Of a stretch of 64,000 nucleotides of DNA, positions 24,423 to 39,354 are shown piece after piece. The stretch's first letter is position 1, and each line of letters starts with the position of its first letter. The translations under genes were made by a program, and so were the position numbers. This DNA comes from an uncultured Flavobacteriaceae bacterium (GTDB lineage: Bacteria; Bacteroidota; Bacteroidia; Flavobacteriales; Flavobacteriaceae), in NCBI GenBank assembly GCA_947501845.1, contig CANMXP010000002.1:1-64000 (forward strand). The letters run 5' to 3'. The notes beneath the pieces were generated by a model. The model did not search any database. It saw only the letters and a program-made list of their open reading frames with translations, and was not told the origin of the DNA.

Positions 24423-26063
<1,641 letters not shown>

Positions 26064-26090
26064 ATCGAAAAACTTCGATAAATACAATAC

Positions 26091-26123
26091 AAAAAACGCC
26101 TCAATTAAATTGAGGCGTTTTTT
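26091..26123 (+). terminator. Terminator between groEL and the converging lipoprotein gene
   Basis: AAAAAACGCCTCAAT and ATTGAGGCGTTTTTT form a long stem with A and T runs on both sides, so it can end transcription in both directions (groEL on +, the gene at 26134 on -). Confidence 0.92.
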
Positions 26124-26133
26124 ATAGATTTAA

Positions 26134-26802
26134 TTAGTTAGTTAATGAAACTTTTAAATACCCTGAACTATTTGGATCAAGAACTGTCCACACCCCTTCG
26201 ATTGAAGGGGTTATGGTAGATGAAAAGTTTAATTCCGCATCAACTGTGGCTGAATTAGATGCTCCAGACGTATAGGTATATGAGATTTCCAGATTGTTTC
26301 CAGTTGTAAAATCCCATGTCCCATTACCTGATGCAGTACCATCACGAACGGTTAGTGTCTTGTTTTCAAAAAAAGTTAGATTATAATTATTGGATGTTAG
26401 AATAGTAGAGTTCGAATCCAAGTTATACCCGCCATCATAAGAGCCTGAAAAACTATGATTTATCGTGACAATAGTTGAGGTACTCCCCGAAGTGTTCTTA
26501 GCAAGAATTTTTATTTCAATTTTACCAAGCGGTATTCCTTTTCGCCAACTTATTACTCCATTGTTTGAATTTATCGAAATACCTGACACACTTGTTTCTA
26601 GCTCAAATATACCTTCTTCTCCCCCCCAATTAATAGATGGGACTTCCGATGTGCCTTCCGTGTAGAATGAAATATCAATTTCATCATTTAAATACTGGAA
26701 ATGGCTTGGTTCTACAATATTAGACTTTTCATCAGAACAAGAATTTGTCAATAATATTGATAATAGAAATAAAATGAGATTAGTTTTTAGAGTTTTAGTC
26801 AT
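26134..26802 (-). CDS. Lipoprotein with beta-sandwich-like domains, function unknown
   Basis: A 222-residue lipoprotein. The start MTKTLKTNLILFLLSILLTNSC (Cys22) gives a clean lipobox; the longer open frame upstream is not needed. Residues about 40-115 resemble a putative Ig/cadherin-like domain (SGISINSNNGVISWRKGIP and KIEIKILAKNTSG), the rest a beta-rich region resembling the lipocalin-like C-terminal domains of Bacteroidota lipoproteins (NLTFFENKTLTVRDGTASGN, GTWDFTTGNNLEISYTY). No catalytic residues evident. It lies downstream of the CsgG-TPR gene with a 100-bp gap and might share its transcript. Confidence 0.75.
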   Translation of the reverse strand: MTKTLKTNLILFLLSILLTNSCSDEKSNIVEPSHFQYLNDEIDISFYTEGTSEVPSINWGGEEGIFELETSVSGISINSNNGVISWRKGIPLGKIEIKILAKNTSGSTSTIVTINHSFSGSYDGGYNLDSNSTILTSNNYNLTFFENKTLTVRDGTASGNGTWDFTTGNNLEISYTYTSGASNSATVDAELNFSSTITPSIEGVWTVLDPNSSGYLKVSLTN

Positions 26803-26902
26803 AATTAATTGAAATGTTTTTCCTGTTATAATTGTTTTTCGGTTGTTGAATTTATTTTTAATTATATTGATCATACAAATAAACTTTTATATAAAGATTC
26901 TA

Positions 26903-28213
26903 TTACTTACCAGTCAACACATCTTTACCTTTAAAATAACCTTTTTCACCATTTGGCAACTTGGCGACAATCCACTTTTCATTGTCTATTCTTTCCAATA
27001 AATCGAGTTCCATGCCTCCAGGGAATTGTCCTAAAACCTTAGATTTTTCATCAGGACTCATGTAGGCTATTTTTCTTTTACTCCTAGGACCTTTAACCTT
27101 AATTCGTTCGATTAAAACATTTCCTTTAGACTCTTTTTTAAATTCGTATGGATAAATCTCAATTCCCATATTATAAAGGTTTTCTGCTAATGCAATATTA
27201 TCTTCAGCTCTTCTCAACCCTTTAACATAAGATTCCTTATCTGGGCTCATATTTACCGCAACACTGTAAAATTCTTTGGCTTTTTCATAGTTTCCAACCA
27301 CTTCATTTAAAATTCCCATGTTGAATACTAATTCTGCGTTATATGGATCAACTTGATATATCGCATCGTACATTTCATAGGCTTTATCGACCTCTCTAAG
27401 TCTTAAAAATTCATTGGCATCTTTTACTCGCTCTTTTAGTTTTTTATGTTTTACTTTCTCAAAAGTGAAAGTATATGAATAATAATAAGGAGCTATATAA
27501 TCTGCGAATTGACGCGCTATTCGTTCACAAGCATATTCAGCAAGTTTATTAGGCGCCATTACAGCATTATTACCTGGTCTGCTTCCTCCTTTTGTAGTAT
27601 CCCCACTTGATGACCTGCCACTGGTTTGACCTATAATTTCTCCTGTAGAAACTAACAAAACTTTCATTCTTGCTTCGGCAGATGTTGTTCTTTTTAAAGT
27701 ATATGTATTAACTAGTTTGCCCTGATCATTTCTATACGAACTATGATCTCTTTCGTCTGTATTAGAATAAGAAACATTACCTAAAATAATGGCATCTACT
27801 CCTAATACCTGACCAATAGAAATAATTTGTGTATCGCTTAAGTTACCTAACTCAAATTCTTTTTCTTCAATAACTCTCTGTAATTCTTCTCTTTCTACTA
27901 TGGAGTAAATATCTGTACGGGCTCCTTGTATAAAACAATTTTTGCTTTTACCTCTAAATTCTTTTAACAACGAAATGGATATATAATCTGCTAATTTACT
28001 ACCTATATCTATCCCTACACTTTTATATTCTTCGCTACTTATATTTTCAAAATCTAGAACAGCAATCCTTTTTACGTCTCCTATATCTTTTTTTGGCGGA
28101 CTTAAAAGCGATGCATTTAATGTTGTTTTGAATAATTGTGCTGAACAAATATTATAGTTAAAAATTACTATTAATAAAAAGGTGATGTTTTTAATTTGTT
28201 TTTTTAACCCCAT
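26903..28213 (-). CDS. CsgG-like domain / TPR / SH3-like secreted protein
   Basis: A 436-residue exported protein (signal peptide to about residue 25, NICSAQ). Residues about 40-240 match the CsgG/HfaB fold (IAVLDFENISSEEYKSVGID, then SIVEREELQRVIEEKEFE and VLGVDAIILGNVSY), known from curli secretion channels and related envelope proteins. There is no lipobox, so it is not a classical CsgG lipoprotein. Residues about 265-335 hold at least two TPR-like units (AYEMYDAIYQVDPYNAELVF, NYEKAKEFYSVAVNMSP). The C-terminal 75 residues resemble a bacterial SH3 domain (WIVAKLPNGEKGYFKGKDV). The three-domain combination suggests a periplasmic assembly factor or sensor. The exact role is unknown. Confidence 0.75.
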   Translation of the reverse strand: MGLKKQIKNITFLLIVIFNYNICSAQLFKTTLNASLLSPPKKDIGDVKRIAVLDFENISSEEYKSVGIDIGSKLADYISISLLKEFRGKSKNCFIQGARTDIYSIVEREELQRVIEEKEFELGNLSDTQIISIGQVLGVDAIILGNVSYSNTDERDHSSYRNDQGKLVNTYTLKRTTSAEARMKVLLVSTGEIIGQTSGRSSSGDTTKGGSRPGNNAVMAPNKLAEYACERIARQFADYIAPYYYSYTFTFEKVKHKKLKERVKDANEFLRLREVDKAYEMYDAIYQVDPYNAELVFNMGILNEVVGNYEKAKEFYSVAVNMSPDKESYVKGLRRAEDNIALAENLYNMGIEIYPYEFKKESKGNVLIERIKVKGPRSKRKIAYMSPDEKSKVLGQFPGGMELDLLERIDNEKWIVAKLPNGEKGYFKGKDVLTGK

Positions 28214-28419
28214 GATTTTATAATTTAATTATATTGTATAACTATCAAATTGCTTATGTATACCTAAGATTAACCCTTGCTTAAAAAACGAGTTAATTCT
28301 ATTTACAATATTAGATTGCTTATTATACCCTTGCAATACGGGAATTCCCTTAACTTATTCAAAACAAATAAATTAATAACTATAATTTCTTACTTTAGAC
28401 GCCTACAATTTCATACCGA

Positions 28420-30420
28420 ATGAATCGTATAATATTTTGTGTATTTCTTTTTAGTATTTCTACTTTATTTAGTCAGAATAAAAATTCAAATAGTATTGAA
28501 CTTCTTATCAAAGATGGGGACAGCCTTACTAGTATAAATAAAAAACATGAGGCTTTAATGGCTTTTAGAAGGGCGCTAGTAATATCATTAGATTCAAAAA
28601 ACAAAGAAATGACTGCCTTTATTTATAAAAAAATAGGCGTTATTCATTATAAAAAAAAAGAATACTTAAAAGCCGAGAATCATTATAAAAAAGGATTGCT
28701 TATAGATAGTTTAACAAAAACCGCTGCCAATAATTATTACAACATAAGCCTTGTAAAGAAGAAACTAAATCAACAAGATAGCGTACTGCATTATTTAGAA
28801 AAAAGCTTAAATATTTACAAGACTTTAAGCTATGATGAAGCTACTTATAATGCATTTTTAAGTGCTGGTATCACTTATAAAAATAGACAGTTATATGAGA
28901 AAGCCTTAGAATTATTAATTATAGCTCATAACGGTTTAAAAACTGGTAATAAAATAAAACTGGCACGTACTTGTACGGTAATTGGCAATATTCATAATCA
29001 AATTAAAAATTATAATCAATCCTTAGCATATTATAAAGAAGCATTGCATGCTTCAAAAACTAGTAATAAAAAAGAAAAGTCTCTAATATATAATAATATT
29101 GCCATAGCATATAAACACCTTAAAGTGCACGATTCTGTTATTATTAACTATAAAAAAGCATTATTGTTAACTACCCCAGAAGACCCAAATTATGGTATAA
29201 TTCTTCAGAATTTGGCATTAACACATAGTGCATCAGGCAACATGAAAATTGCCAAAAAAAACTTTAAACAAGCCATCGAACTACATAAGATCTCAAAAGA
29301 CACCTCTTCCCTCCTCTATTGCTATAATGGTATGGCAAGTTTACTAATAAAACAAAATAGAAAAAAGGACGTTAAACCTTATTTAGATAGTGTTTCTTTT
29401 TTACTCCCCAGATCTATTGACAAAACACCTCTTCTTGATTACTATACTAATCAGGTAGACTACCAAACTAGCATTAAGAAATATAAAACAGCATTAAACT
29501 ACTATAAGAAATACAATGAGTTATTTGAAAAAACATATAATATAAAACAAGTCGAGATCATTCAAAATATACAATCTAGGTTTGATTATGAAAAAAAAGA
29601 ACATACCATATTAAAACTATCTACACAAAATAAAGACAATTTGTTAAAGATAGCTTCTAAAAATAGGAGATTAGAAGGAAAGAACTTAATTATTATTTCG
29701 CTTAGCTGTATCATAGTCCTAGGTTTTATAGGGTATTATATTTATGTGCAAAGACAAAAAGCAACAAAACAACGACTTAAAATCGAAAAACTGGAAGCCA
29801 TTTATCAAGGGCAAGAAACAATACAAAAAAGAATTGCTCAAGACCTTCATGATGTTATCACCAACAACTTTGATGGATTAAGACTTCAAATACTCGCTTT
29901 ATTACGCATGCCTAATCCTAAGGACCATATAATGGTCATTGCGAATGAATTACAGGATATAAATCAACAAATCAGATTAGTATCTCACCGTTTATCTCCA
30001 ATAAACATGCATATAAAGCATCATAAATTTATAGAAATAATCAAGGCCAGACTAAGCGAATTTCAAGTGTATCATAAAATATATGTTAATATAAAGAATG
30101 AATTACCTGAGTTATTAAACGATTTACACATTGAAACTCAAAATAATTTTTATGGCATCCTTTTAGAAGTTTTAAATAACAGCTCGAAACATGCGCAAGC
30201 TACAGAGCTTAGTATTACAAACCATATAAATAAAAATCAAAGTATTCATTTCATTTTAACCGATAACGGTATAGGTATAAGTAATAATTATAAAATGGGT
30301 ATTGGTTTGCTTAATATAAAACAAAGGTCAGAAATTATCGGAGGTTCTGCTATTATTAAAAGGGTTGATTCTGGCACAGAGGTTCATATTAAATTTCCAT
30401 TACAAATCAATTTAAAATGA
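28420..30420 (+). CDS. TPR-domain sensor histidine kinase (NarL-type)
   Basis: A 666-residue membrane kinase. The signal peptide (about 1-18) is followed by six to eight TPRs facing the periplasm (about 20-370), a membrane helix at about 423-445, and the cytoplasmic kinase. The dimerisation/phosphoacceptor region is of the HisKA_3 type (KRIAQDLHDVITNNFDGLRL, His about 476). The ATPase domain has the N box (LLEVLNNSSKHA), DNGIGIS and GIGLLNIKQRSEIIGGS. Its stop codon overlaps the start of the response-regulator gene by four bases (ATGA), so both are coupled. The signal sensed by the TPRs is unknown. Such kinases are abundant in Bacteroidota. Confidence 0.93.
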   Translation: MNRIIFCVFLFSISTLFSQNKNSNSIELLIKDGDSLTSINKKHEALMAFRRALVISLDSKNKEMTAFIYKKIGVIHYKKKEYLKAENHYKKGLLIDSLTKTAANNYYNISLVKKKLNQQDSVLHYLEKSLNIYKTLSYDEATYNAFLSAGITYKNRQLYEKALELLIIAHNGLKTGNKIKLARTCTVIGNIHNQIKNYNQSLAYYKEALHASKTSNKKEKSLIYNNIAIAYKHLKVHDSVIINYKKALLLTTPEDPNYGIILQNLALTHSASGNMKIAKKNFKQAIELHKISKDTSSLLYCYNGMASLLIKQNRKKDVKPYLDSVSFLLPRSIDKTPLLDYYTNQVDYQTSIKKYKTALNYYKKYNELFEKTYNIKQVEIIQNIQSRFDYEKKEHTILKLSTQNKDNLLKIASKNRRLEGKNLIIISLSCIIVLGFIGYYIYVQRQKATKQRLKIEKLEAIYQGQETIQKRIAQDLHDVITNNFDGLRLQILALLRMPNPKDHIMVIANELQDINQQIRLVSHRLSPINMHIKHHKFIEIIKARLSEFQVYHKIYVNIKNELPELLNDLHIETQNNFYGILLEVLNNSSKHAQATELSITNHINKNQSIHFILTDNGIGISNNYKMGIGLLNIKQRSEIIGGSAIIKRVDSGTEVHIKFPLQINLK

Positions 30421-31064
30421 CAAAAAAATCAACTATTCTCATTGCTGATGACTCTGTAATATTCTCGCAGGGACTTTCCACACTATTACAACAATACCCG
30501 ATTATCGTTAAAAATGTGTTGAAAGCAAAGAATTTTAAAGAAACTCTAGAAATTACTAAAACTGAAAAAATTGATATATTAATTCTAGATATCAATTTTG
30601 AATCTGAAGAATACAATGGTTTCACCATAGCAGAAAAAATAAAAACACTTTATCCCTACATAAAAATTATCATACTCACCCAGCAAGCAAAAATTGATAA
30701 TTACGAAATTTTGTTTAATGACATAGGTGTTGATGGTTATTTGGATAAGCAACTTTCTGTAGATATTGCTATTGAAGCAATTTCTCAAATACAAGAGGGT
30801 AAAAAATATATTGACAATACCATAAAGGAAATGCTAGAGGTTGGGAGATGGATGAATATTTCATCTAGAGAAAAAGAAGTTATAGAGTGGCTTAGTAAAG
30901 GTTATTTACAAAAGGAAGTTGCAGACAAACTTTGCTTAAGTATTCGCACTATTGAAGTACATTGTCGAAACATGGCTAAAAGAATTGGTGCTAAAAATAC
31001 AGCGCATTTAATTTCAATTTATACTAAATATAAAGGAAGCAATAGGGAAAGAGCTCCTGATTAA
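30417..31064 (+). CDS. LuxR-type response regulator
   Basis: A 215-residue response regulator. The receiver (about 1-125) has an intact acidic pocket (ADDS near 10-13), phosphoacceptor Asp in LILDIN (about 57) and Lys in DGYLDKQLS. The C-terminal GerE/LuxR helix-turn-helix is SSREKEVIEWLSKGYLQKEV and IRTIEVHCRNMAKRIG. Overlap with the upstream kinase shows they form a two-component system. Its targets are unknown; the adjacent operon at 31412 with repeated elements upstream is one candidate (inference). Confidence 0.93.
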   Translation: MTKKSTILIADDSVIFSQGLSTLLQQYPIIVKNVLKAKNFKETLEITKTEKIDILILDINFESEEYNGFTIAEKIKTLYPYIKIIILTQQAKIDNYEILFNDIGVDGYLDKQLSVDIAIEAISQIQEGKKYIDNTIKEMLEVGRWMNISSREKEVIEWLSKGYLQKEVADKLCLSIRTIEVHCRNMAKRIGAKNTAHLISIYTKYKGSNRERAPD

Positions 31065-31071
31065 TAGTTAA

Positions 31072-31102
31072 AACCCTAATACTATATGTTAGTATTAGGG
31101 TT
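31072..31102. terminator. Bidirectional terminator between converging genes
   Basis: AACCCTAATACTA (31072-31084) and TAGTATTAGGGTT (31090-31102) form a perfect 13-bp stem with a 5-base loop, between the response regulator (ends 31064, +) and the small lipoprotein gene (ends 31114, -). Confidence 0.88.
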
Positions 31103-31113
31103 AAAAACCGCTA

Positions 31114-31272
31114 TTAATTAGTGACTTCTTCAGGATCAATAATTTTCTCAGTGGCTTCCGAACTGATTTGATCATCATAGATACTTAAATCATCATCAAT
31201 ACTGCAAGAGCACATGAAACAAAAGGTCATCATAAAAATGATCAATACTAAAATTTTAAATAAATTTTTCAT
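31114..31272 (-). CDS. Very small lipoprotein, function unknown
   Basis: A 52-residue lipoprotein. The signal is unusually long and hydrophobic (MKNLFKILVLIIFMMTFCFM, then CSC), with the lipidated Cys probably among residues 21-23, and a mature part of only about 30 acidic residues (SIDDDLSIYDDQ, EKIIDPEEVTN). The ATG at 31272 is preferred; the frame extends upstream without a reason. It is divergent from the gene at 31412 across 139 bases of regulatory-looking DNA. No function recognised; size suggests a peptide-like accessory lipoprotein. Confidence 0.6.
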   Translation of the reverse strand: MKNLFKILVLIIFMMTFCFMCSCSIDDDLSIYDDQISSEATEKIIDPEEVTN

Positions 31273-31334
31273 GACATTATATTTTAAATTAATAATGCCA
31301 AAGCAACAGGTTTTAAGCAACCTAAATCACCATA

Positions 31335-31379
31335 AATTACTGATAATCATGAATTTACATGATTTACGTGTTTTTACGG
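31335..31379 (+). promoter_or_regulatory. Run of 9-bp repeats upstream of the CHAT operon
   Basis: ATTTACATG (31353-31361), ATTTACGTG (31362-31370) and TTTTTACGG (31371-31379) follow each other in strict 9-base phase. Two more degenerate units, AATTACTGA (31335) and TAATCATGA (31344), precede them in the same phase. They lie 33-77 bases before the start of the operon and could be binding sites for a regulator. No T run or stem suggests a terminator. Confidence 0.45.
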
Positions 31380-31411
31380 AAAAATTCATAGAATATAATA
31401 TACTTTAAAAA

Positions 31412-32896
31412 ATGTGTAAAGAAGCTGAGAACAAATACATAGACTCTGTCCATAATTACTACAAAGAAAATTCTAACAATACTGAGTTGAACCATAAACT
31501 TAGAAGTGCTACTCGTATATCATTACATGATTACTGCAAGGAAAAGATGAGGAAAGATGATTATACACAAAAAGATATATCTATTATTTGCGACTTTTTT
31601 AAAATTGATGATATTGACAATCTCAAATTAAAAGTGTTTAACATCTTAAACAATGCTGAAAGAGGATCAAAGTTTTCAGCTGCCTCACATTTTTTAAAAA
31701 ATTATGATAACTCAAACGAAAAAAGAGAATACACCTTAAAAGTAGTAAATTTTGTCAGCTGGTTAATAGGCTACGACCAAAGGCCTTATGGGGTATCTAT
31801 ACAAAACGATACAAATTATGAGAAAAAGAATATTGACATAATAAAAAATAATACTTTTAAAACAGACTACAATAGTATATCCCATACAGGCATAAACTTC
31901 AACTCATTAAAAATTGCATTAGTCGATATTAAAGAATACCAGATGGAAGGCTCTATCTCAAAAGACGAACTGGTTACTGATATTCTAAAAACAAATATTG
32001 AAGAGGTTTACGTTGAAAAAAATCGAAACATAATAATCGATCATTATTCGTATAGTGATTATAAGAAAATAAAAGATGACAATATAAATTATGATTTAAT
32101 CATAAAAGGAAGATCTTCTTATGTCGACAATGAAAGAATATCTAGAATTCAATTTCAAGCTACAAGAAAGAATAGTGATTTAGAAACAGATTATAACAAA
32201 AATATTGACAGCATATATAAAATAGATAAATTCTGTTTTTTAGGAGAAGGAAGACTTCCTGCAAATATAAACTTCATAACCAAATGGTTACTAGCCTTAG
32301 ATTACTATTTTAAAGAAGAACTCACTAAGTGTCTACCATTAGTCTTAGAGCTTGAAAATATGCTTTCAGCAGATAAACAAGATACTTTTAAAGATATAGA
32401 TATTGGACATGTAGAAGTGCAATTTCTTAAAGCAGTCATATTTATGCTTCAGGACCAACAATATGACGCACTAGAAATCTTTAACGACATAGAAGCCAAC
32501 CATATGAATTATTTAAAAAACAATTCACATATTCTATCTAAACTTCATCATAATATCGGAATCTTAGAGAAAGTGAAAGGTAATTTAAAGGTAGCAGTTA
32601 AACATTTTGAAAATGCCATAAGCTCTAAAGAAAATCAATGGCAAAGCTATTGGGAGCTGGCCAGAATAACAGCTTATAAGAAAAAAAAGGAGAACACTTA
32701 TAATATCATTATCAAAAAAGATTATCAACATTATTACACCAAAGCATTTGAGTATAGTGGGCTAAATCATATAAAAGAAGAGCTTGAACTTATAAACAAA
32801 GATGATTTTAAGATAATAAATACCATTAAAGATTATATAAATGAAACAAGCATCAATAGAAATAATAAAGATATTATAATAAAAGGTAAAGAATAA
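31412..32896 (+). CDS. TPR protein with FlgO/TolB_N-like domain, partner of the CHAT protein
   Basis: A 494-residue soluble protein without signal or membrane segment. Residues 1-120 are helical and unrecognised. Residues about 166-262 follow the pattern of the FlgO/TolB_N-like domain found near TPRs in adenylate-cyclase-type proteins: LKIALVDI, an ELVTDILKTNIEEVY helix, IIIDHYSYSDYKK, then INYDLIIKGRSSYVDNERI and SRIQFQATRKNSD. Residues about 290-440 contain TPR-like helices (GHVEVQFLKAVIFMLQDQQY, HHNIGILEKVKGNLKVAVKH). It is separated from the CHAT gene by 4 bases, so both are translated from one transcript. Function is not known; it may be a sensor or adaptor for the protease. Confidence 0.7.
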   Translation: MCKEAENKYIDSVHNYYKENSNNTELNHKLRSATRISLHDYCKEKMRKDDYTQKDISIICDFFKIDDIDNLKLKVFNILNNAERGSKFSAASHFLKNYDNSNEKREYTLKVVNFVSWLIGYDQRPYGVSIQNDTNYEKKNIDIIKNNTFKTDYNSISHTGINFNSLKIALVDIKEYQMEGSISKDELVTDILKTNIEEVYVEKNRNIIIDHYSYSDYKKIKDDNINYDLIIKGRSSYVDNERISRIQFQATRKNSDLETDYNKNIDSIYKIDKFCFLGEGRLPANINFITKWLLALDYYFKEELTKCLPLVLELENMLSADKQDTFKDIDIGHVEVQFLKAVIFMLQDQQYDALEIFNDIEANHMNYLKNNSHILSKLHHNIGILEKVKGNLKVAVKHFENAISSKENQWQSYWELARITAYKKKKENTYNIIIKKDYQHYYTKAFEYSGLNHIKEELELINKDDFKIINTIKDYINETSINRNNKDIIIKGKE

Positions 32897-32900
32897 TATC

Positions 32901-35900
32901 GTGAAAAGAACCCTTTTTAATTATCATATCAAAAAAGATATACAGGTAGAAAGCTTTCATCATATAATAGATAATTTTAAAATGGGAGAAACACCTGAAG
33001 ACGTTTTTTCCTATAAACTTATTCAGCAAATGGAAGTCTTTTTTTCAGAAGATTTACAGTTACAGCGTATTTTAAAAATTGCTCAAGAAACTCATGTACT
33101 GTTGCATCTTATTTCAGATAACAATGCTGTTTTAGCATTACCATGGCAATTTTATTTTGATCAATATCCATTAATAGGAATATCAAAAGGAAATAAGCCA
33201 ATTAATAAATATGTTCCTCCTAAAAAGAGTTCTAAACTCAATGTTTTAATGATTTTTTCTAGCCCTTTTGGACAAAGCTCATTAGACATTAAACATGAAT
33301 CTCACACACTATTGTCTAGGTTTTTAAATAATGGAGTTAATTTAAAAATAGCAGACGACGGATCATTAGTATCATTAGAAAATATTTTGCAAAAAGAGCA
33401 TTTTGACATTATTTACTATAGTGGTCACGGAAGCTACAAAAATGGCGAAACTACACTTTTCTTCGAAACCCCTTTAGTTGGTCATGAAGACGAAATCTCT
33501 GGTCAAAATTTTGTTGACAGTATAGTTAAACATGCTATAACATTACCGCAATTGGTTATATTATCATCCTGTAATACAGCGCTAGGCAAAGTTGGATTTG
33601 AAGGTGTTACCAATCTTTTATTAGATAATGATATCTCTGCAGTGATTAGTTTTTCTAATACCATTGAACAAGAAAATGCTACATTTTTTTGCAGCATGCT
33701 AGCCTATCATTTATCAAGAAAGTATGACCTTCTTGATGCATATAAATTCAGTGTGAATTTATTAAAAAAACTGCAGCAAAGACCAAAAAACGGAAGAGTC
33801 TCATGGCTGGAGTCTCAATTATTCCTTCAAAAACATATTGAAAAATTGGTAGGGTATGAAGATAAAACTACCTTAAAAAATAATTACCCTAAATGTTTTT
33901 TTAAATCAAAAATATACCTTCCATTTTTACATAGAAATGAAATAAGAGAATTATCCAACTTAATTCTAAAGGGCAATGCAAAAATTAATATTTCTGGACA
34001 TAGGGGGCTAGGAAAATCTGCATGTATTAACTATATAATGCAAAATCATGAGGCATTTGTTCCAGACTTAAAAATATTACACTTCATAGGAAATAAATGT
34101 ACTCTTAGCGCTCTTAAAGAAAAGGCATCTATACTTATTGGGAAACCTATTATTGAAATAAAAAACGATCTTACTACATATGCCCAAGAGCATCGTTTAC
34201 TTATTGTTATTGACCAGATAGACGATTTAGTTGTTGTAAATAATAACTCCTTTGTATTATCTAATGAAGTTTTAGATTTAGTTAAACAGATTGAAAACAT
34301 TAATATCTTTTTAATAACTCGCTTTCCAATTATTAATGATGTTTTTCAAATTATTAAATTCCCGGATATTTCAATACCCCAACTCTTTTTCATTTTCAAA
34401 AAAAGCTTTTTGGGAGAATATATAAATAAAGCACTACCATCCAGAACTTTAAGCTCTGTTTTCAGCAATCACCCTCTTTATTTGATTATTAAAGCGTTAT
34501 TCTCAACAGGCTCTTTTGGAGGCATTCTAGAATTGTACATGATTTTTGAAGATTTATTATCTAAAAACATAAAAGAAATCGACGTTTATGATAGTGAACA
34601 AAGTTTTCTTGAAGACCATACTGATACTATAAGAATGGCGCTTTATTTATATGAGGTACATGATAAAAAAGAAGGATACTACATTCTATCTTATTTAAAA
34701 CGCTTTGACAAAACCTTACAAAAAATCATAAAAACCGCTTCTATTCATAAAACGTCAGTAGGAAAAAAAATATTAATACCTAAAAATTTAAAAGACAAAG
34801 AAACGGATATTCATTTAAAAAAATTAGTTGCATTGAACCTTATAGAAACAGATGATATAGGTCGAGGAGAAAAGCTTTACAGAACCCACCCTCTACTATC
34901 TAATTCACAATTTCTTGAAGTAGAAGATTTCTTTGATAAAAAAGCCGTAGCAGACTATTTATTATCATTCTTTGACGAAAGGCATGATAGCTTTAAAAGA
35001 ACCCATAACAACACATATATTAATTATTTAAATGAAGCATTTTATTTGTATGCAAACGTAAATGACAAATCTGGAATTGTATCTGCTGGAAAAAAACTAT
35101 GTCACGAATATAATATTAATAGTAGCCCTGATGACGTTATTAGAATTGGAAAAACAGTTTTTCAGATAATTCAAGACCAAACTCCAATAGAAGTTTTAGA
35201 GCTATTATTTCAAGCTTATCAAAGAAAAGGCCTTCAAAATGATGCTGATTATATCAGCACAAAATATAAACAAAAAGCAATAGATGAAAAAGGTGTATTA
35301 GACATAATTAACTCATATCATTTAGAAGGCAATGCTTATACTGATAAAGGTTTATTTAAAAAAGCATCTGACAAATATGATAGAGCATTAACAGAACTTA
35401 AAAAAAGTGTTTTAAAAGCTGAAGAAGCTTCAATGTTGGAGTTAGCTATATTGTCAGATTCTGCAAATGCTTTAAGACATATAAATAAATCTGAAGAAGC
35501 GGAAAAGAGGCTATTAAAGGCTTACAAAATAATGATCGATCTTAAGGTTGATTCCCCAGAAATATTAGATAACCTTTTAGCGTTTTATATAGAAAACAAT
35601 AAACACAATAAGTCTTTATATTATGCAGAAAAAACATTGACAGAAAGCACCTTGAAGCATAACCAAACCATAGAGATTAATGCATTAAAGAAGCAAGGGG
35701 TAATATACATGCAGAAGCATAAATTTGTATACGCCAAGACTATTTTTAATCAAGTCATGCATCTTGCCATTTTGGCTTCAGATTCTTTTTCTCAAGCCGA
35801 AGCTAATACATATCTAGGCCATGTTTACTTATTAGAAGGAGAATATATGGAAAGTAAAAATATGTTTAATGCTACTTTTTATAAAAAAGCTTTAAAGTTT

Positions 35901-36467
35901 TTTTTTAAAGCACGTGAATTTTACACGGAAGAACAGCTTATTGATCTATATCAACTTTACAATATGATGGCTACTTGTTCTTCTAAAATTCAACAACCTA
36001 AACAAGCCATTAGTTACAGAGAACAGCAACTATTATTAGCATCTCAAATGGAAGATTTAAAAATTGAACTTCCCTTATACACTGCTCTAGGAATAGATTA
36101 TGGAAAACAGGGAAATGTTAAGAAGTCCATGGAATATTACGAACTACACAATGATAAAATTAATAAAAGGCTAAATCAAGGTAATATAGATTTAAACCTC
36201 AAAAATACACTTTTGTCTAGAAAAATGCTTTGCTCATTATTAATTGCTAATACATTATATAGAAATTTAAAGTCAGAAGAAGCCTATTATAATTATTCTA
36301 CTGAAGCTTTTTCTTTATTCTTTATAGAAAAATTGCAATTACCATACAGTATAGAAAGGCAATTCATTATAAATGCAAATGCTTTTATTAATGCAGGATT
36401 TCAATGCGAATTTCAAAATGAACTAGAAACTATAGTAAAGAGGTTGGCTAATAAATACTTAAGATAA
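32901..36467 (+). CDS. CHAT protease - STAND ATPase - TPR protein
   Basis: A 1188-residue protein with GTG start. Residues about 110-310 are a CHAT (caspase HetF associated with TPR) peptidase: beta strand LNVLMIFSSPFG, His176 in IIYYSGHG and Cys224 in VILSSCNTALGKVGFEGVTN form the predicted dyad. Residues about 345-620 are a STAND-type NTPase: Walker A GHRGLGKS (366-373), Walker B LLIVIDQIDD (433-442), and a following helical/winged region ending near 680. From about 770 to 1180 are TPR repeats (EGNAYTDKGLFKKASDKYDR, ALKKQGVIYMQKHKFVYAKT, TYLGHVYLLEGEYMESKN). No membrane segment. This effector-ATPase-repeat order is that of bacterial NLR-like immune proteins; the substrate cannot be predicted. 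Confidence 0.85.
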   Translation: MKRTLFNYHIKKDIQVESFHHIIDNFKMGETPEDVFSYKLIQQMEVFFSEDLQLQRILKIAQETHVLLHLISDNNAVLALPWQFYFDQYPLIGISKGNKPINKYVPPKKSSKLNVLMIFSSPFGQSSLDIKHESHTLLSRFLNNGVNLKIADDGSLVSLENILQKEHFDIIYYSGHGSYKNGETTLFFETPLVGHEDEISGQNFVDSIVKHAITLPQLVILSSCNTALGKVGFEGVTNLLLDNDISAVISFSNTIEQENATFFCSMLAYHLSRKYDLLDAYKFSVNLLKKLQQRPKNGRVSWLESQLFLQKHIEKLVGYEDKTTLKNNYPKCFFKSKIYLPFLHRNEIRELSNLILKGNAKINISGHRGLGKSACINYIMQNHEAFVPDLKILHFIGNKCTLSALKEKASILIGKPIIEIKNDLTTYAQEHRLLIVIDQIDDLVVVNNNSFVLSNEVLDLVKQIENINIFLITRFPIINDVFQIIKFPDISIPQLFFIFKKSFLGEYINKALPSRTLSSVFSNHPLYLIIKALFSTGSFGGILELYMIFEDLLSKNIKEIDVYDSEQSFLEDHTDTIRMALYLYEVHDKKEGYYILSYLKRFDKTLQKIIKTASIHKTSVGKKILIPKNLKDKETDIHLKKLVALNLIETDDIGRGEKLYRTHPLLSNSQFLEVEDFFDKKAVADYLLSFFDERHDSFKRTHNNTYINYLNEAFYLYANVNDKSGIVSAGKKLCHEYNINSSPDDVIRIGKTVFQIIQDQTPIEVLELLFQAYQRKGLQNDADYISTKYKQKAIDEKGVLDIINSYHLEGNAYTDKGLFKKASDKYDRALTELKKSVLKAEEASMLELAILSDSANALRHINKSEEAEKRLLKAYKIMIDLKVDSPEILDNLLAFYIENNKHNKSLYYAEKTLTESTLKHNQTIEINALKKQGVIYMQKHKFVYAKTIFNQVMHLAILASDSFSQAEANTYLGHVYLLEGEYMESKNMFNATFYKKALKFFFKAREFYTEEQLIDLYQLYNMMATCSSKIQQPKQAISYREQQLLLASQMEDLKIELPLYTALGIDYGKQGNVKKSMEYYELHNDKINKRLNQGNIDLNLKNTLLSRKMLCSLLIANTLYRNLKSEEAYYNYSTEAFSLFFIEKLQLPYSIERQFIINANAFINAGFQCEFQNELETIVKRLANKYLR

Positions 36468-36490
36468 TATATTAAAAAACAACAAAACTT

Positions 36491-36880
36491 ATGTCATTAT
36501 TAAGATTAGATGGTATCTATTTTATGGAATATGGAGACGACTCCTTTAACACAATAACTCGATTGTTTCGTTTTTATACTAAAGAATTTGATTTAAAATC
36601 TATTTTTTTAGCAGGTGGAGATATTAACAAACAAATTACATTGGGTTTAGGAGAATCCCTAAAATTAATGGACAATGAAGTAACTGACCCTGGAATCATT
36701 ACAAGTACATATCAATTGGATGAAAATTACCAGATAAAATTTACTTTAGGGAATGAGGGTTTTATAGGAAGTCTTTCGTTAGATCACTCATACATTGATA
36801 TTACAATCGATAATACAACCAATGTAACTCTTAAAAAAATTAACCTAATTGAGTATATAAAACTAAAAGAATTATTCTAG
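36491..36880 (+). CDS. Small protein in the CHAT operon, function unknown
   Basis: A 129-residue soluble protein beginning 23 bases after the CHAT gene, presumably in its transcript. It is beta-rich with an alternating pattern (LRLDGIYFMEYGDDSFNTIT, IIKFTLGNEGFIGSLSLDH-like strands) and no recognisable motif or signal. Position suggests it could be a regulator or target of the CHAT protease, or simply an unrelated passenger. I do not recognise a family. Followed by a terminator-less gap of 97 bases before the converging beta-lactamase. Confidence 0.65.
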   Translation: MSLLRLDGIYFMEYGDDSFNTITRLFRFYTKEFDLKSIFLAGGDINKQITLGLGESLKLMDNEVTDPGIITSTYQLDENYQIKFTLGNEGFIGSLSLDHSYIDITIDNTTNVTLKKINLIEYIKLKELF

Positions 36881-36977
36881 TTTATTGGATACTACCGTTT
36901 TTCAGTATTGAAATAGCTAAAAATTTGATAACTATTACATGTTTCTATTAAACTAATATTCCCTTTTTAAAACGTTT

Positions 36978-37877
36978 TTATTTGCTCTTAAAATAATCCC
37001 AACTAAGTTTAGCTATATCTGCTATTATTTTTTTGTTTACATCGCTTTTTTCTTTTGAATCGCTCACCAATACACTCAAATAAAAATAGTCGCCGTTTGG
37101 CAAGAAAACAATCCCTATATCATTTAGGGCACCTGTAACCCCATTTTTGTTTTTTCCAGAATGCCCAGTTTTATGGGCAACTATAGTGTTTTTAGGCAAA
37201 CGACCTCTAATGCAATGCTTTCCTGTCCAAGACCCCTTCATGGTATCCCATAAAAATTTATGACTTTCGGGAGATAGTTGTTGCTCAGCATTTTCAAAAA
37301 AAACTTTTAAAGCCATGTTTGCAGCTTTTGCTGTCGTCCAATTTTCATATTGAAGATCCCATTTAGCTTGTTGCGTTACTTCATCATATACAACAGCAAT
37401 ACCTGATATGCCAACCTGGTGCAAATAACTTTCCACTTCTTTAGGACCACCTACAAGTTTGAACAACAAATCACAACCTACATTATCACTAGATGCAACT
37501 GTTTCCTTCAATATTTCGGCCAAGGTCAAATCTGCTCCTTGTGGATACTTTTCACGTATTGGACTCCATAAATTATTGTTTAAGTCTGCTTGGGTAATGG
37601 TTATCTTCTTATTCAGAGAAAATTTTCCTTTATCTACTTGATTCAATACAGCTAAAGCTAAATGATATTTATAAACACTTTGCATTGGGAGATGAACATC
37701 TCCATTAATTGATAAAGTGTCTTTTGGATTTTGTCCCATAATTCCAACACCAACAGTAGCCTCTTTGTCGGCTAAGATTCCATTAATTTTTTGTCTTAAC
37801 GTATTAATCGATTGTCCTTTTGACTGATTAAAAGCCATTACAAACACTAAAATTAAAGGTATTAGTCTATGACTCAT
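36978..37877 (-). CDS. bla: Class A beta-lactamase, subclass A2
   Basis: A 299-residue serine beta-lactamase with signal peptide (about 1-21, FNQSKGQ). Motifs are intact: SVYK (Ser67-Lys70), SDN (130-132), a Glu at 166 in YDEVTQQAKWD, and KTG (236-238, in AHKTGHSG). The phrasing MQSVYKYHLALAVL and QYENWTTAKAAN is that of the Bacteroidota A2 subclass (CfxA/CepA/PER-related), which often acts as a cephalosporinase; substrate range cannot be read from sequence. It begins two bases after the stop of the lipoprotein gene at 37880, so it is translationally coupled to it. No mobile-element boundary is seen, so it is probably chromosomal and old. Confidence 0.92.
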   Translation of the reverse strand: MSHRLIPLILVFVMAFNQSKGQSINTLRQKINGILADKEATVGVGIMGQNPKDTLSINGDVHLPMQSVYKYHLALAVLNQVDKGKFSLNKKITITQADLNNNLWSPIREKYPQGADLTLAEILKETVASSDNVGCDLLFKLVGGPKEVESYLHQVGISGIAVVYDEVTQQAKWDLQYENWTTAKAANMALKVFFENAEQQLSPESHKFLWDTMKGSWTGKHCIRGRLPKNTIVAHKTGHSGKNKNGVTGALNDIGIVFLPNGDYFYLSVLVSDSKEKSDVNKKIIADIAKLSWDYFKSK

Positions 37878-37879
37878 AT

Positions 37880-38749
37880 TTATTTCACATTTAAGTCTAT
37901 TGATGCTTTAATTTTATTATCACTTTTTTTATCCCAGATTATAATTTCACAGGCTATGGGATTCTTTATATTAGAACCCGAAAATATAAAATTAGGGGCT
38001 AATTGCCTTTTTAATTCTGAGGCTTCAATAACCGAATCACCAATTAAATCTTCTTCGTTCAAAATCATTTCTCCCTCAGAATCTTTACCTTTTATACTTA
38101 ATCCCAAATAAGCTTTACCATCTTCTAAAATAAACCCTTCAAGACCTTCAAACATCATAAATATATTTTCATTGAATTTTACTTTATTATTGGTAATGCA
38201 AACATTTCCTTCCCGTGAAAATAAATACACCTCATCATGAGAAATATTATTACTTTCAATTTTAATTTGATTGTTTGGAACAACATCAAAATCCATCTCA
38301 GCAGAAAAAGTCCCTTCCCCCTTTTTATCCCAAATGTTTACATATGCCCTGTATTTATTATTTGAATGAATAGGGTTAGCAACCGTTATTTTTGTTTGTA
38401 ACAATAATGGAGAAATATCAATCCCATTATTGCTGGCATACAAATCGTTATTAAACATTATTGTATCTCCTTTTACCCCAAGGACTATAAGTTTTAAGCC
38501 AGAAAAAACATTATTGTCTATCTTTTTAAAACCTTTAATATCGTTAAAATTCAAATAAAATGTCTGTCCGTAAGTAAATGATGTTCTACTTATTTCGTTC
38601 TTCCCATCAGACAACGAAACATGATCGCAAGAAAGCCCATCTCCTTTAGTAGTTATACCTGTTACGAAATCTTTATTTATTGATTTATTGAATTCGCAAG
38701 AAACTGCAGCAAACAACAAAAAGCCAATAGCTAATATTTTAATTTTCAT
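37880..38749 (-). CDS. Lipoprotein with duplicated beta domain, upstream of bla
   Basis: A 289-residue lipoprotein. ATG 38749 gives MKIKILAIGFLLFAAVSC (Cys18). The mature part consists of two related halves: each contains a hydrophobic strand before a LxLxVKG/LSIKG turn (LKLIVLGVKGDT and AYLGLSIKGKDSE), then an acidic segment, an I-L-rich helix and a strand ending in IWDKKxxxxxxAxxDxxV. So the domain is an internal duplication of about 120 residues. It resembles uncharacterised Bacteroidota domains. It shares a transcript with the beta-lactamase, two bases downstream, which is unusual and points to an envelope-stress or cell-wall role (inference). Confidence 0.72.
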   Translation of the reverse strand: MKIKILAIGFLLFAAVSCEFNKSINKDFVTGITTKGDGLSCDHVSLSDGKNEISRTSFTYGQTFYLNFNDIKGFKKIDNNVFSGLKLIVLGVKGDTIMFNNDLYASNNGIDISPLLLQTKITVANPIHSNNKYRAYVNIWDKKGEGTFSAEMDFDVVPNNQIKIESNNISHDEVYLFSREGNVCITNNKVKFNENIFMMFEGLEGFILEDGKAYLGLSIKGKDSEGEMILNEEDLIGDSVIEASELKRQLAPNFIFSGSNIKNPIACEIIIWDKKSDNKIKASIDLNVK

Positions 38750-38803
38750 AATTGTTTTTCGAGTGACTAAACGAAAGTAACTTTTTTTTACAGAAAACCA
38801 AAA

Positions 38804-38827
38804 AAGCCCAAACATTAGTTTGGGCTT
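38804..38827 (-). terminator. Terminator after the HMA-domain gene
   Basis: AAGCCCAAAC (38804-38813) and GTTTGGGCTT (38818-38827) form a 10-bp stem with loop ATTA, followed on the minus strand by a run of T. It ends the metal operon and precedes the start of the lipoprotein at 38749. Confidence 0.9.
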
Positions 38828-38848
38828 CAAAAATTTCAATGTATTCTT

Positions 38849-39238
38849 TTAATGATTATGACCATCATCCTTTTTATCCTCTTCATCTCCCTTATGGTTA
38901 TCAATAATATCTCTGTCTCGATATCTACAGCAAGGATGTACCGTAGCATACGCCTCATCAGTCGCTTTTATTTCTTTTGTATCATGACCCACAGCAAGGA
39001 TATTTTCTTGTATCGTTTTTAAGTTGGTTTTACGTTCATCAAAAATCAACTTTAACTCATGTGTTTTCACATTCCACACGGCAGACTTCACTCCTTTGGT
39101 GTTTAAGCTTGCTTTTTCTATGCGAGTCTTACACATTAAACAAACGCCATCTACTTCCATAGAGGCTCTAGCATTTTTATTTTGTGCAAATACTGTTGTT
39201 GTTATTAATACGGTTAATACAATTATTAGTTTTTTCAT
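38849..39238 (-). CDS. Secreted heavy-metal-associated domain protein
   Basis: A 129-residue exported protein (signal about 1-18, TTVFAQ) with an HMA domain of the ferredoxin-like type (about 25-95). The metal site is CLMC, where family members have MxCxxC. A second Cys-rich motif HPCC (about 102-105) and a His/Asp-rich tail (GDEEDKKDDGHNH) add ligands. It probably binds copper or a related metal in the periplasm. Downstream of the TonB receptor with a 118-bp gap containing a repeat. Confidence 0.85.
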   Translation of the reverse strand: MKKLIIVLTVLITTTVFAQNKNARASMEVDGVCLMCKTRIEKASLNTKGVKSAVWNVKTHELKLIFDERKTNLKTIQENILAVGHDTKEIKATDEAYATVHPCCRYRDRDIIDNHKGDEEDKKDDGHNH

Positions 39239-39257
39239 ATTTCTATTATTTTATTTG

Positions 39258-39354
39258 TCATTCCTGCAAAGGCAGGAATCCACTTTACTGTAATTAATTT
39301 TCAATTTATGAGATTCCTGCTTTACTGAAAAACGAGTTCAGCATAAATCGTAGG
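39258..39354. repeat. ATTCCTGC-type dispersed repeat
   Basis: ATTCCTGC (39260-39267) pairs with GCAGGAAT (39272-39279), and GATTCCTGC recurs at 39312-39320. It is the ATTCCTGC...GCAGGAAT intergenic repeat familiar from flavobacterial genomes. It fills the gap between the TonB receptor and the HMA gene. Confidence 0.6.

Follow-up and report, generated by a model that had tools for sequence, protein, structure and literature searches.

CHAT proteases are listed among bacterial defence components, with Borvo and type III-E systems named (PMC10952713), and bNACHT25 (PMC12169576) and CARD-NLR (PMC13236601) are precedents for NLR-like STAND proteins in defence. Two further papers (PMC7159879, PMC8195603; eLife 2020, 2021) concern the EAD, TRADD-N and EACC conflict systems, and the adaptor-domain proteins treated in PMC8195603 have N-termini that differ between close relatives. 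In Marinomonas mediterranea, a histidine kinase and a response regulator give phage resistance via the regulation of CRISPR-Cas, as reported in PMC8523701. No report of a histidine kinase–regulator pair encoded with a CHAT-STAND protease was found in the literature searched, which covered few subscription journals. Here we describe such a locus in a stretch of 64,000 nucleotides (the window; contig CANMXP010000002.1, assembly GCA_947501845.1) from an uncultured Flavobacteriaceae bacterium that is counted as a marine Flavivirga, a placement made by inference. The locus encodes a TPR histidine kinase, a LuxR/NarL-type response regulator and three further proteins of 494, 1188 and 129 amino acids (aa), of which the 1188-aa protein combines a CHAT protease with an ATPase that is of the STAND type by motif. 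Computational analysis established the domains and catalytic residues of these proteins, the co-inheritance and constraint of their genes, the replacement of one domain, and a recurrent linkage of the regulator family to CHAT and STAND effectors.

Results

Comparison with Flavivirga amylovorans

A pattern-based scan of the contigs of species genomes, which detects close relatives only, returned one locus, that of F. amylovorans KACC 14157 (L003), at 94% identity. An earlier sequence-only reading of the window had described a three-gene locus. Its three open reading frames (ORFs), all on the plus strand, are confirmed with their gaps of 4 and 23 bases, but the co-inherited unit comprises five genes and includes a kinase–regulator pair directly upstream that had been overlooked. 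Between positions 28,251 and 36,950, 51 of 58 bins of 150 bp are 90–99% identical to L003, the remaining seven being the last bin and the zone of a domain swap (31,101–32,000), whereas identity per bin is 75–88% in the adjacent CsgG gene and 77–88% in the other flanking blocks. Synonymous divergence (dS) within the unit is 0.15 for the body of the 494-aa gene, 0.20 for the 1188-aa gene, 0.21 for the 129-aa gene, 0.31 for the kinase and 0.40 for the regulator, compared with 1.08 for the CsgG gene, 1.08 for a TonB-type receptor, 1.24 for an HMA-type protein and 0.57 for groEL. Because identity is higher and dS lower than in the flanks, the five genes look like one horizontally moved unit, and the two species probably came to share all of them at a time when the flanks had already diverged. 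Given the difference in dS, the kinase/regulator pair and the operon possibly arrived in two tracts. The ratio of nonsynonymous to synonymous divergence (dN/dS) lies between 0.03 (regulator) and 0.23 for each gene of the unit, so every gene is constrained. Synteny, on which the three-gene reading had hinged, holds for all genes in this one other species and was not found in the other genomes sampled. The condition named as refuting that reading, a lack of conserved synteny, is thus only partly avoided; looser cassettes of this type do recur. The unit is AT-rich (about 28–29% GC, compared with about 33–36% in the bins just upstream), and a repeat search of positions 26000–38900 revealed no convincing terminal direct repeats or mobile-element signature of an island.

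Exchange of the N-terminal domain of the 494-aa protein

The N-termini of the 494-aa protein and its 473-aa F. amylovorans orthologue, 164 codons in the window and 143 in F. amylovorans, align at background identity. The right junction of this swap is sharp: at aa 165 of the window protein and aa 144 of the L003 protein, a few codons separate the background identity of about 43% from one of about 97%, and identity is about 95–97% beyond the junction. The left edge is gradual, with about 71% identity in a stretch containing an antisense ORF (31,101–31,250) and about 95% in the regulator gene. Across the swap, the body of the 494-aa protein and the protease stayed about 94–95% identical (protease 94%). 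The alignment thus indicates that the N-terminal domain was exchanged between species while the rest of the unit remained near-identical. Together with the pairing of a membrane sensor and an immune-receptor-like protease in an apparently mobile unit, the exchange suggests a signal-triggered, possibly anti-phage protease system. As the protease shows no change to match the replacement, the swapped N-terminus is probably directed at the trigger, or at some other host factor, instead of the protease. The pattern points to a domain that determines input specificity without docking to the protease.

In F. amylovorans, the N-terminus is a member of a family of helical-looking domains, which we named adaptor A and which is also found beside other kinase/regulator pairs. 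Members were first chosen by eye and then tested by leave-one-out hidden Markov models (HMMs) among 1345 ORFs, where each ranked first (E = 7.5e-23, 2.2e-15, 1.7e-16, 1.1e-4, 3.6e-6 for L003, and a weak 0.23 for L046). The window N-terminus did not match the adaptor A profile, and a search of 50 relatives for its donor yielded only fragments with E values of 0.02–0.07, two of three containing stops. A second group that included the window N-terminus ('adaptor B') was discarded: leave-one-out models missed the window and L044 members, while three others scored 7e-6 to 3e-8. Pooling both groups was likewise rejected, as scores became worse (L003, 2e-4) and the L046, L044, L045_716 and window members were not recovered.

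The 494-aa protein had been labelled FlgO-like, a label that found no support: Pfam gave no FlgO or CsgG match, and hhalign of the body against FlgO/CsgG proteins, with shallow alignments, returned a probability of 0.3%. The whole protein has no family in Pfam or NCBIfam at E ≤ 0.1; its pieces match weakly (N-terminus, DUF2200, E = 0.054; body, DUF6953, E = 0.045, and TPR_2, E = 0.084). We regard it as a candidate adaptor or input component.

The 1188-aa and 129-aa proteins

The 1188-aa gene starts with GTG, and its F. amylovorans orthologue has ATG at the same position. Its product has the NLR-like layout proposed for it, i.e. a CHAT protease, an ATPase that is STAND-type by motif, and TPRs. 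Pfam CHAT (PF12770) matches residues 131–237 (E = 1.2e-8, 35.2 bits against a cut-off of 24; 37.8 bits in a genome scan), and the predicted dyad of His176 (YYSGHGSY) and Cys224 (LSSCNTA) reads as proposed, both residues being invariant across five CHAT domains (this protein, its orthologue and three divergent domains). The Walker A (GHRGLGKS, 366–373) and Walker B (LLIVIDQIDD, 433–442) motifs are equally in place, and G366, G369, G371, K372, D438 and D441 are invariant in a five-sequence alignment with the orthologue and the NACHT/NB-ARC proteins of L044, L047 and L053; NACHT itself is sub-threshold (E = 0.049, 13.9 bits against a cut-off of 26.7; 15.4 bits for the slice alone). The C-terminal TPRs are borne out by TPR_12 at residues 811–878 (E = 9.3e-8, 32.6 bits against 30.1), and residues 953–1113 give weak TPR-type matches in the PDB (E of 0.02 and above). 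As noted before, no nuclease or gasdermin family is among the Pfam matches of the five proteins of the unit. Purifying selection acts on the 1188-aa protein (dN/dS of 0.15 against its single orthologue; 0.10 for the CHAT part). No transmembrane segment was predicted in the 494-, 1188- and 129-aa proteins, which therefore look cytosolic.

The 129-aa protein, a candidate substrate, inhibitor or regulator of the protease, has no family in Pfam, NCBIfam or PADLOC at E ≤ 0.1 and is 88% identical to its F. amylovorans orthologue (dS 0.21, dN/dS 0.22). Its AlphaFold2 (AF2) model was discarded (mean predicted local distance difference test score, pLDDT, 36). A match to phrog_12225 of unknown function (E = 8.7e-4) was treated as chance because the 88%-identical orthologue does not reproduce it.

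Linkage of the regulator family to CHAT and STAND proteins

The window-type regulator is rare, being present in six of 12 Flavivirga genomes and six of 299 Flavobacteriaceae genomes; the 11 loci in all were read over regions of 14–20 kb. Above the Pfam cut-off, CHAT was found near it in four loci (the window, L003, L052 and L054), NACHT in two (L047 and L053) and NB-ARC-TPR in one (L044), that is in seven of 11 loci, or eight when L045 is added, whose 716-aa 'STAND' protein is a motif reading with only a sub-threshold AAA_22 match in Pfam (E = 0.039). An M48-type peptidase and adaptor A lie near the regulator of L046. In independent genera, members of the regulator family immediately adjoin NACHT, or an adaptor together with CHAT (L052, L053, L054). 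As controls, ten stretches of 18–19 kb were taken at chosen offsets from the same contigs. None of them gave a CHAT or STAND HMM match (0/10); they do contain two P-loop ORFs of at least 450 aa that the STAND HMM did not match. Only this control result is informative from the HMMs, because they had been trained on test-locus proteins and a few other proteins of the analysis; moreover, the 11 loci are not fully independent, since L044 and L045 represent the same chromosomal site in two species. With the window and L003 left out, five of nine loci by Pfam compare with none of ten controls (Fisher p about 0.011; with L045, six of nine and about 0.003).

L044, L045, L050 and L066 mark a second recurrent site, which in two genera holds kinase/regulator cassettes of both types and is flanked by genes for proteins of 334–349 aa and 159 aa that we take to be FBPase-like and GNAT-like, respectively.

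The groEL–HMA site and wider adaptor–kinase modules

The interval between groEL and the HMA gene was readable in all 12 Flavivirga genomes, four of which carry a kinase/regulator cassette together with a CsgG-TPR-SH3 gene. In the window and F. amylovorans the site holds the CHAT-STAND-TPR operon. L034 and L033 each have an adaptor-A membrane protein there, together with a signal-bearing CHAT protein of 1278 aa (E = 5e-43, with propeller and ankyrin matches just above cut-off) and a 211-aa protein in L034, and with a signal-bearing caspase protein of 1184 aa (C14, E = 5e-7, with propeller matches below cut-off) and a 239-aa protein in L033. The kinase/regulator pairs of L033 and L034 are only 23–27% identical to that of the window. 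The other eight genomes have neither the CsgG gene nor the pair in the interval, which is short (about 370 bp in L037) or holds other genes; the CsgG-TPR-SH3 gene thus occurs in 4/4 cassette-bearing and 0/8 other genomes. It lies outside the moved unit, though it is associated with cassette-bearing alleles of the site.

A search of the 299 genomes with adaptor A gave nine matches, eight of them strong and three of these from training loci; the ninth (L070, E = 7.8e-4, partial, in a polysaccharide-type locus with no kinase) was dropped as a false positive. All five new loci (L065–L069) have a TPR kinase and a regulator directly adjacent, which supports the adaptor–kinase link. Part of their ORFs was scanned against Pfam, and the partners recognised were pentapeptide-repeat proteins (L065, L068), a GDPD membrane protein with a P-loop (L067) and FlgO (L069), the others being unassigned.

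Distribution

Sampling of 299 Flavobacteriaceae genomes detected the 1188-aa and 129-aa genes in no genome other than that of the window, and 395 and 296 Bacteroidota-wide genomes searched with the 1188- and 494-aa proteins, respectively, gave partial matches only; these genome searches score only the top candidates per genome. Distant matches to the 1188-aa protein (L014–L018, E of 1e-7 to 8e-6) were not counted as relatives, four of them lying in the TPR part and that of L017 over residues 58–344. No match was obtained by tblastn against plasmids with the 1188-, 494- and 129-aa proteins, by tblastn against phages with the 1188- and 129-aa proteins, or in scans of viral contigs with the 1188-aa protein, the 129-aa pair and the regulator alignment. 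In PADLOC, the regulator has only weak CARF and PDC matches, those to CARF covering its DNA-binding end.

All 12 Flavivirga genomes carry one core CHAT protein of about 870–890 aa (e.g. G000:C2:355618-356379), probably with a housekeeping function. CHAT matches outside this gene are infrequent (7/19, two of them weak), and NACHT exceeds the cut-off four times in the 12 genomes, once adjoining a window-type regulator. At L071 (1403-12604), in another Flavivirga, a 1038-aa CHAT protein is encoded in a cluster with two proteins, of 1461 and 1224 aa, for which BLAST indicates a relationship to the L033 caspase protein. The weak CHAT matches at L073 (7315-9633) and L074 (7837-13046) are surrounded by small arrays with ORFs that look caspase-like and TIR-like by eye, possibly separate conflict islands.

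Gene arrangement and surroundings

Coordinates are given in Table 1. The kinase has TPRs, a transmembrane segment at about 418–444, HATPase_c and a HisKA_3-like match just under cut-off (Pfam, hydropathy), and its N-terminus looks signal-like by eye; it is presumably an envelope sensor. The regulator gene overlaps the kinase gene by 4 bases and is separated from the three-gene operon by 347 bp. A small lipoprotein-like ORF lies antisense between the regulator and the 494-aa gene in both species (window 31114-31320, minus strand; L003 6254-6409, minus strand, 51 aa) and diverges faster than its surroundings. The flanks, partly recognised by eye, comprise groEL on one side and beta-lactamase, HMA-like and TonB-receptor-like genes on the other. 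The class A beta-lactamase gene directly 3' of the cassette (window 36978-37877, minus strand; NCBIfam subclass A2, 339.5 bits against 320) is absent from the equivalent place in F. amylovorans. A short dispersed intergenic repeat at about 39252-39323 of the window matches dozens of places, on both strands, in Flavivirga genomes.

Table 1. Features of the five-gene unit and its neighbour, in window coordinates
Feature	Coordinates	Strand	Evidence or remark
CsgG-TPR-SH3 protein, 436 aa, signal-like N-terminus	26903..28213	-	Pfam CsgG above cut-off; TPR, SH3 below
TPR histidine kinase, 666 aa	28420..30420	+	Pfam, hydropathy
LuxR/NarL-type response regulator, 215 aa	30417..31064	+	Pfam Response_reg and GerE
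Swapped segment: 5' region and first 164 codons of the 494-aa gene	31260..31903	+	Not homologous to F. amylovorans; left edge approximate
494-aa two-part protein: variable N-terminal domain (aa 1-164) and conserved body (aa 165-494, weak TPR)	31412..32896	+	
1188-aa protein: CHAT about 1-330, STAND-type NTPase about 340-700, TPR array about 700-1188	32901..36467	+	Domain borders approximate
129-aa protein, no family or fold assigned	36491..36880	+	

Discussion

The locus probably encodes an abortive-defence or regulated-proteolysis module in the form of a cytosolic CHAT protease that is linked to a kinase, switched by ATP and provided with an exchangeable input domain. Our preferred reading, held tentatively and with slightly less than even confidence, is that of a horizontally mobile five-gene, signal-gated protease module with a role against phages or mobile genetic elements (MGEs), this being the purpose that we infer. 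In such a module, the TPR histidine kinase would sense an envelope signal and the LuxR-type regulator would set expression. The 1188-aa protein would be kept inactive in the cytosol by its TPR arm as an ADP-bound STAND monomer until a trigger, which the 494-aa adaptor would present or threshold, elicits ATP-dependent oligomerisation and renders the CHAT Cys-His protease active. The protease might then cut a cellular or module-encoded target, with the 129-aa protein as putative substrate or brake, and cleavage would lead to growth arrest or death of the infected or damaged cell.

Several observations weigh against a gated anti-phage protease. The exact cassette is known in two species only. At E ≤ 0.1, PADLOC has no family for the 494-, 1188- and 129-aa proteins or the kinase, and the flanks are neither a classical defence island nor made up of defence genes. 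The STAND-type call is made from motifs and the alignment with NACHT/NB-ARC proteins because NACHT falls below its cut-off, and the AF2 model of the 1188-aa protein, built from a two-row alignment, had to be discarded (mean pLDDT 32). The swap also replaced the 5' region where the conserved regulator would be expected to bind. With regard to linkage, two of the 11 regulator loci (L050, L051) have no effector-like partner; in L044 and L045 the STAND gene lies 4–6 kb from the regulator with another kinase/regulator pair in between; and L044, L045, L046, L050 and L051 have a secreted-looking protein family in common nearby. Conversely, L071 and L072, two strong accessory CHAT loci in the genus, lack a kinase/regulator pair in the region read. 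Finally, the new adaptor loci L065–L069 had no CHAT or STAND HMM match and no BLAST match to the L033 caspase protein, and the wider kinase/regulator plus adaptor module is not protease-specific.

Some of these points are compatible with regulated proteolysis outside immunity, in which the kinase would sense envelope or surface stress and the protease would process a host regulator or surface-assembly factor for stress adaptation or surface remodelling. Both families of kinase/regulator module also occur beside secreted-looking, pentapeptide-repeat, CsgG/FlgO-type and outer-membrane-like proteins (some of these labels being assigned by eye), the CsgG-TPR-SH3 gene accompanies every cassette at the groEL–HMA site, and the operon proteins are without a PADLOC family. 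We nevertheless consider this explanation rather unlikely, as a sporadic distribution (the CHAT-STAND gene in one of the 299 family genomes sampled) with horizontal movement is more typical of conflict systems, and exchange of effectors at one site and replacement of an N-terminus are more typical of them than of housekeeping proteolysis.

It is less likely still that the kinase/regulator pair is a mere neighbour and that the functional unit, acting as a stand-alone NLR-like defence protein, is confined to the three genes of the CHAT operon or even to the 1188-aa protein. The higher dS of the pair (0.31–0.40, compared with 0.15–0.21 in the operon), perhaps reflecting separate tracts, the 347 bp with a small antisense ORF that precede the operon, and the accessory CHAT loci without such a pair would fit this view. 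By contrast, the recurrence of the regulator family directly beside NACHT or adaptor plus CHAT in independent genera, and the sharing of all five genes with F. amylovorans at a dS below that of the measured flanks, argue against it.

That the N-terminal swap reflects ordinary fast divergence or a gene-call artefact and not recombination appears very improbable. N-terminal signalling domains can evolve rapidly and the left edge of the segment is gradual, but the abrupt right junction, the different lengths and mere background identity of the two N-termini, and the match of only the F. amylovorans one to adaptor A speak for replacement. A decaying or neutral cargo, as might be suspected from the rarity and AT-richness of the unit, is hardly credible and largely refuted by purifying selection, with ORFs intact in two species and low dN/dS in every gene.

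Beyond the signal-gated protease module of the window, it is possible, though doubtful, that a class of two-component-gated conflict modules exists in Flavobacteriaceae, in which a constant kinase–regulator pair and an adaptor with an exchangeable input are combined, at recurrent sites, with interchangeable executioners. With the same reservation, CHAT-STAND-TPR, secreted CHAT, secreted caspase, NACHT, NB-ARC-TPR and metallopeptidase proteins might all be such executioners. If so, immunity or programmed death would be wired directly to an envelope-sensing histidine kinase. The adaptor loci without CHAT or STAND proteins, the shared secreted-looking family and the CHAT loci lacking the pair lead us to view the module as a general flavobacterial signalling cassette that is often but not always associated with NLR- or caspase-like executioners.

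Should the preferred reading of a signal-gated, defence-related protease apply, it would link classical two-component signalling to NLR-like proteolytic effectors, and one could test whether envelope sensing is the means by which bacteria set the threshold of death-like immunity. With two alleles that are about 95% identical elsewhere, the natural swap offers a ready-made experiment that isolates the candidate specificity domain, and the recurring regulator and adaptor families provide a sequence handle for finding further modules; the operon proteins of the window and several related effectors have no or weak PADLOC matches.

Among described systems, the CHAT domain points to Craspase of type III-E CRISPR: the best PDB matches of a profile of five CHAT domains are the Csx29/TPR-CHAT structures 8d9f, 7x8a and 7y9x (E of 0.005–0.008), which likewise combine a caspase-fold CHAT protease with TPRs. 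The locus differs in its domain order, CHAT-NTPase-TPR; Cas7-11 was not matched by any of the five proteins in Pfam, PADLOC or NCBIfam, and positions 26000–38900 contain no CRISPR array, the repeat search having revealed two-copy families only. With the bacterial NLR-related STAND proteins it has in common a STAND-type ATPase as the switch between sensing and effector. Unlike in bNACHT and CARD-NLR systems, however, a CHAT effector is fused to the ATPase, a two-component pair and a domain-swapped partner are encoded alongside, and Pfam recognised no trypsin or gasdermin family among the proteins of the unit. In comparison with the EAD/TRADD-N/EACC systems, the unit has no MoxR or vWA match in Pfam, and the linked signalling element is a histidine kinase with a DNA-binding regulator. 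The two-component system of M. mediterranea is a precedent for kinase-gated immunity; its target is CRISPR-Cas, whereas the pair described here is encoded beside an NLR-like protease.

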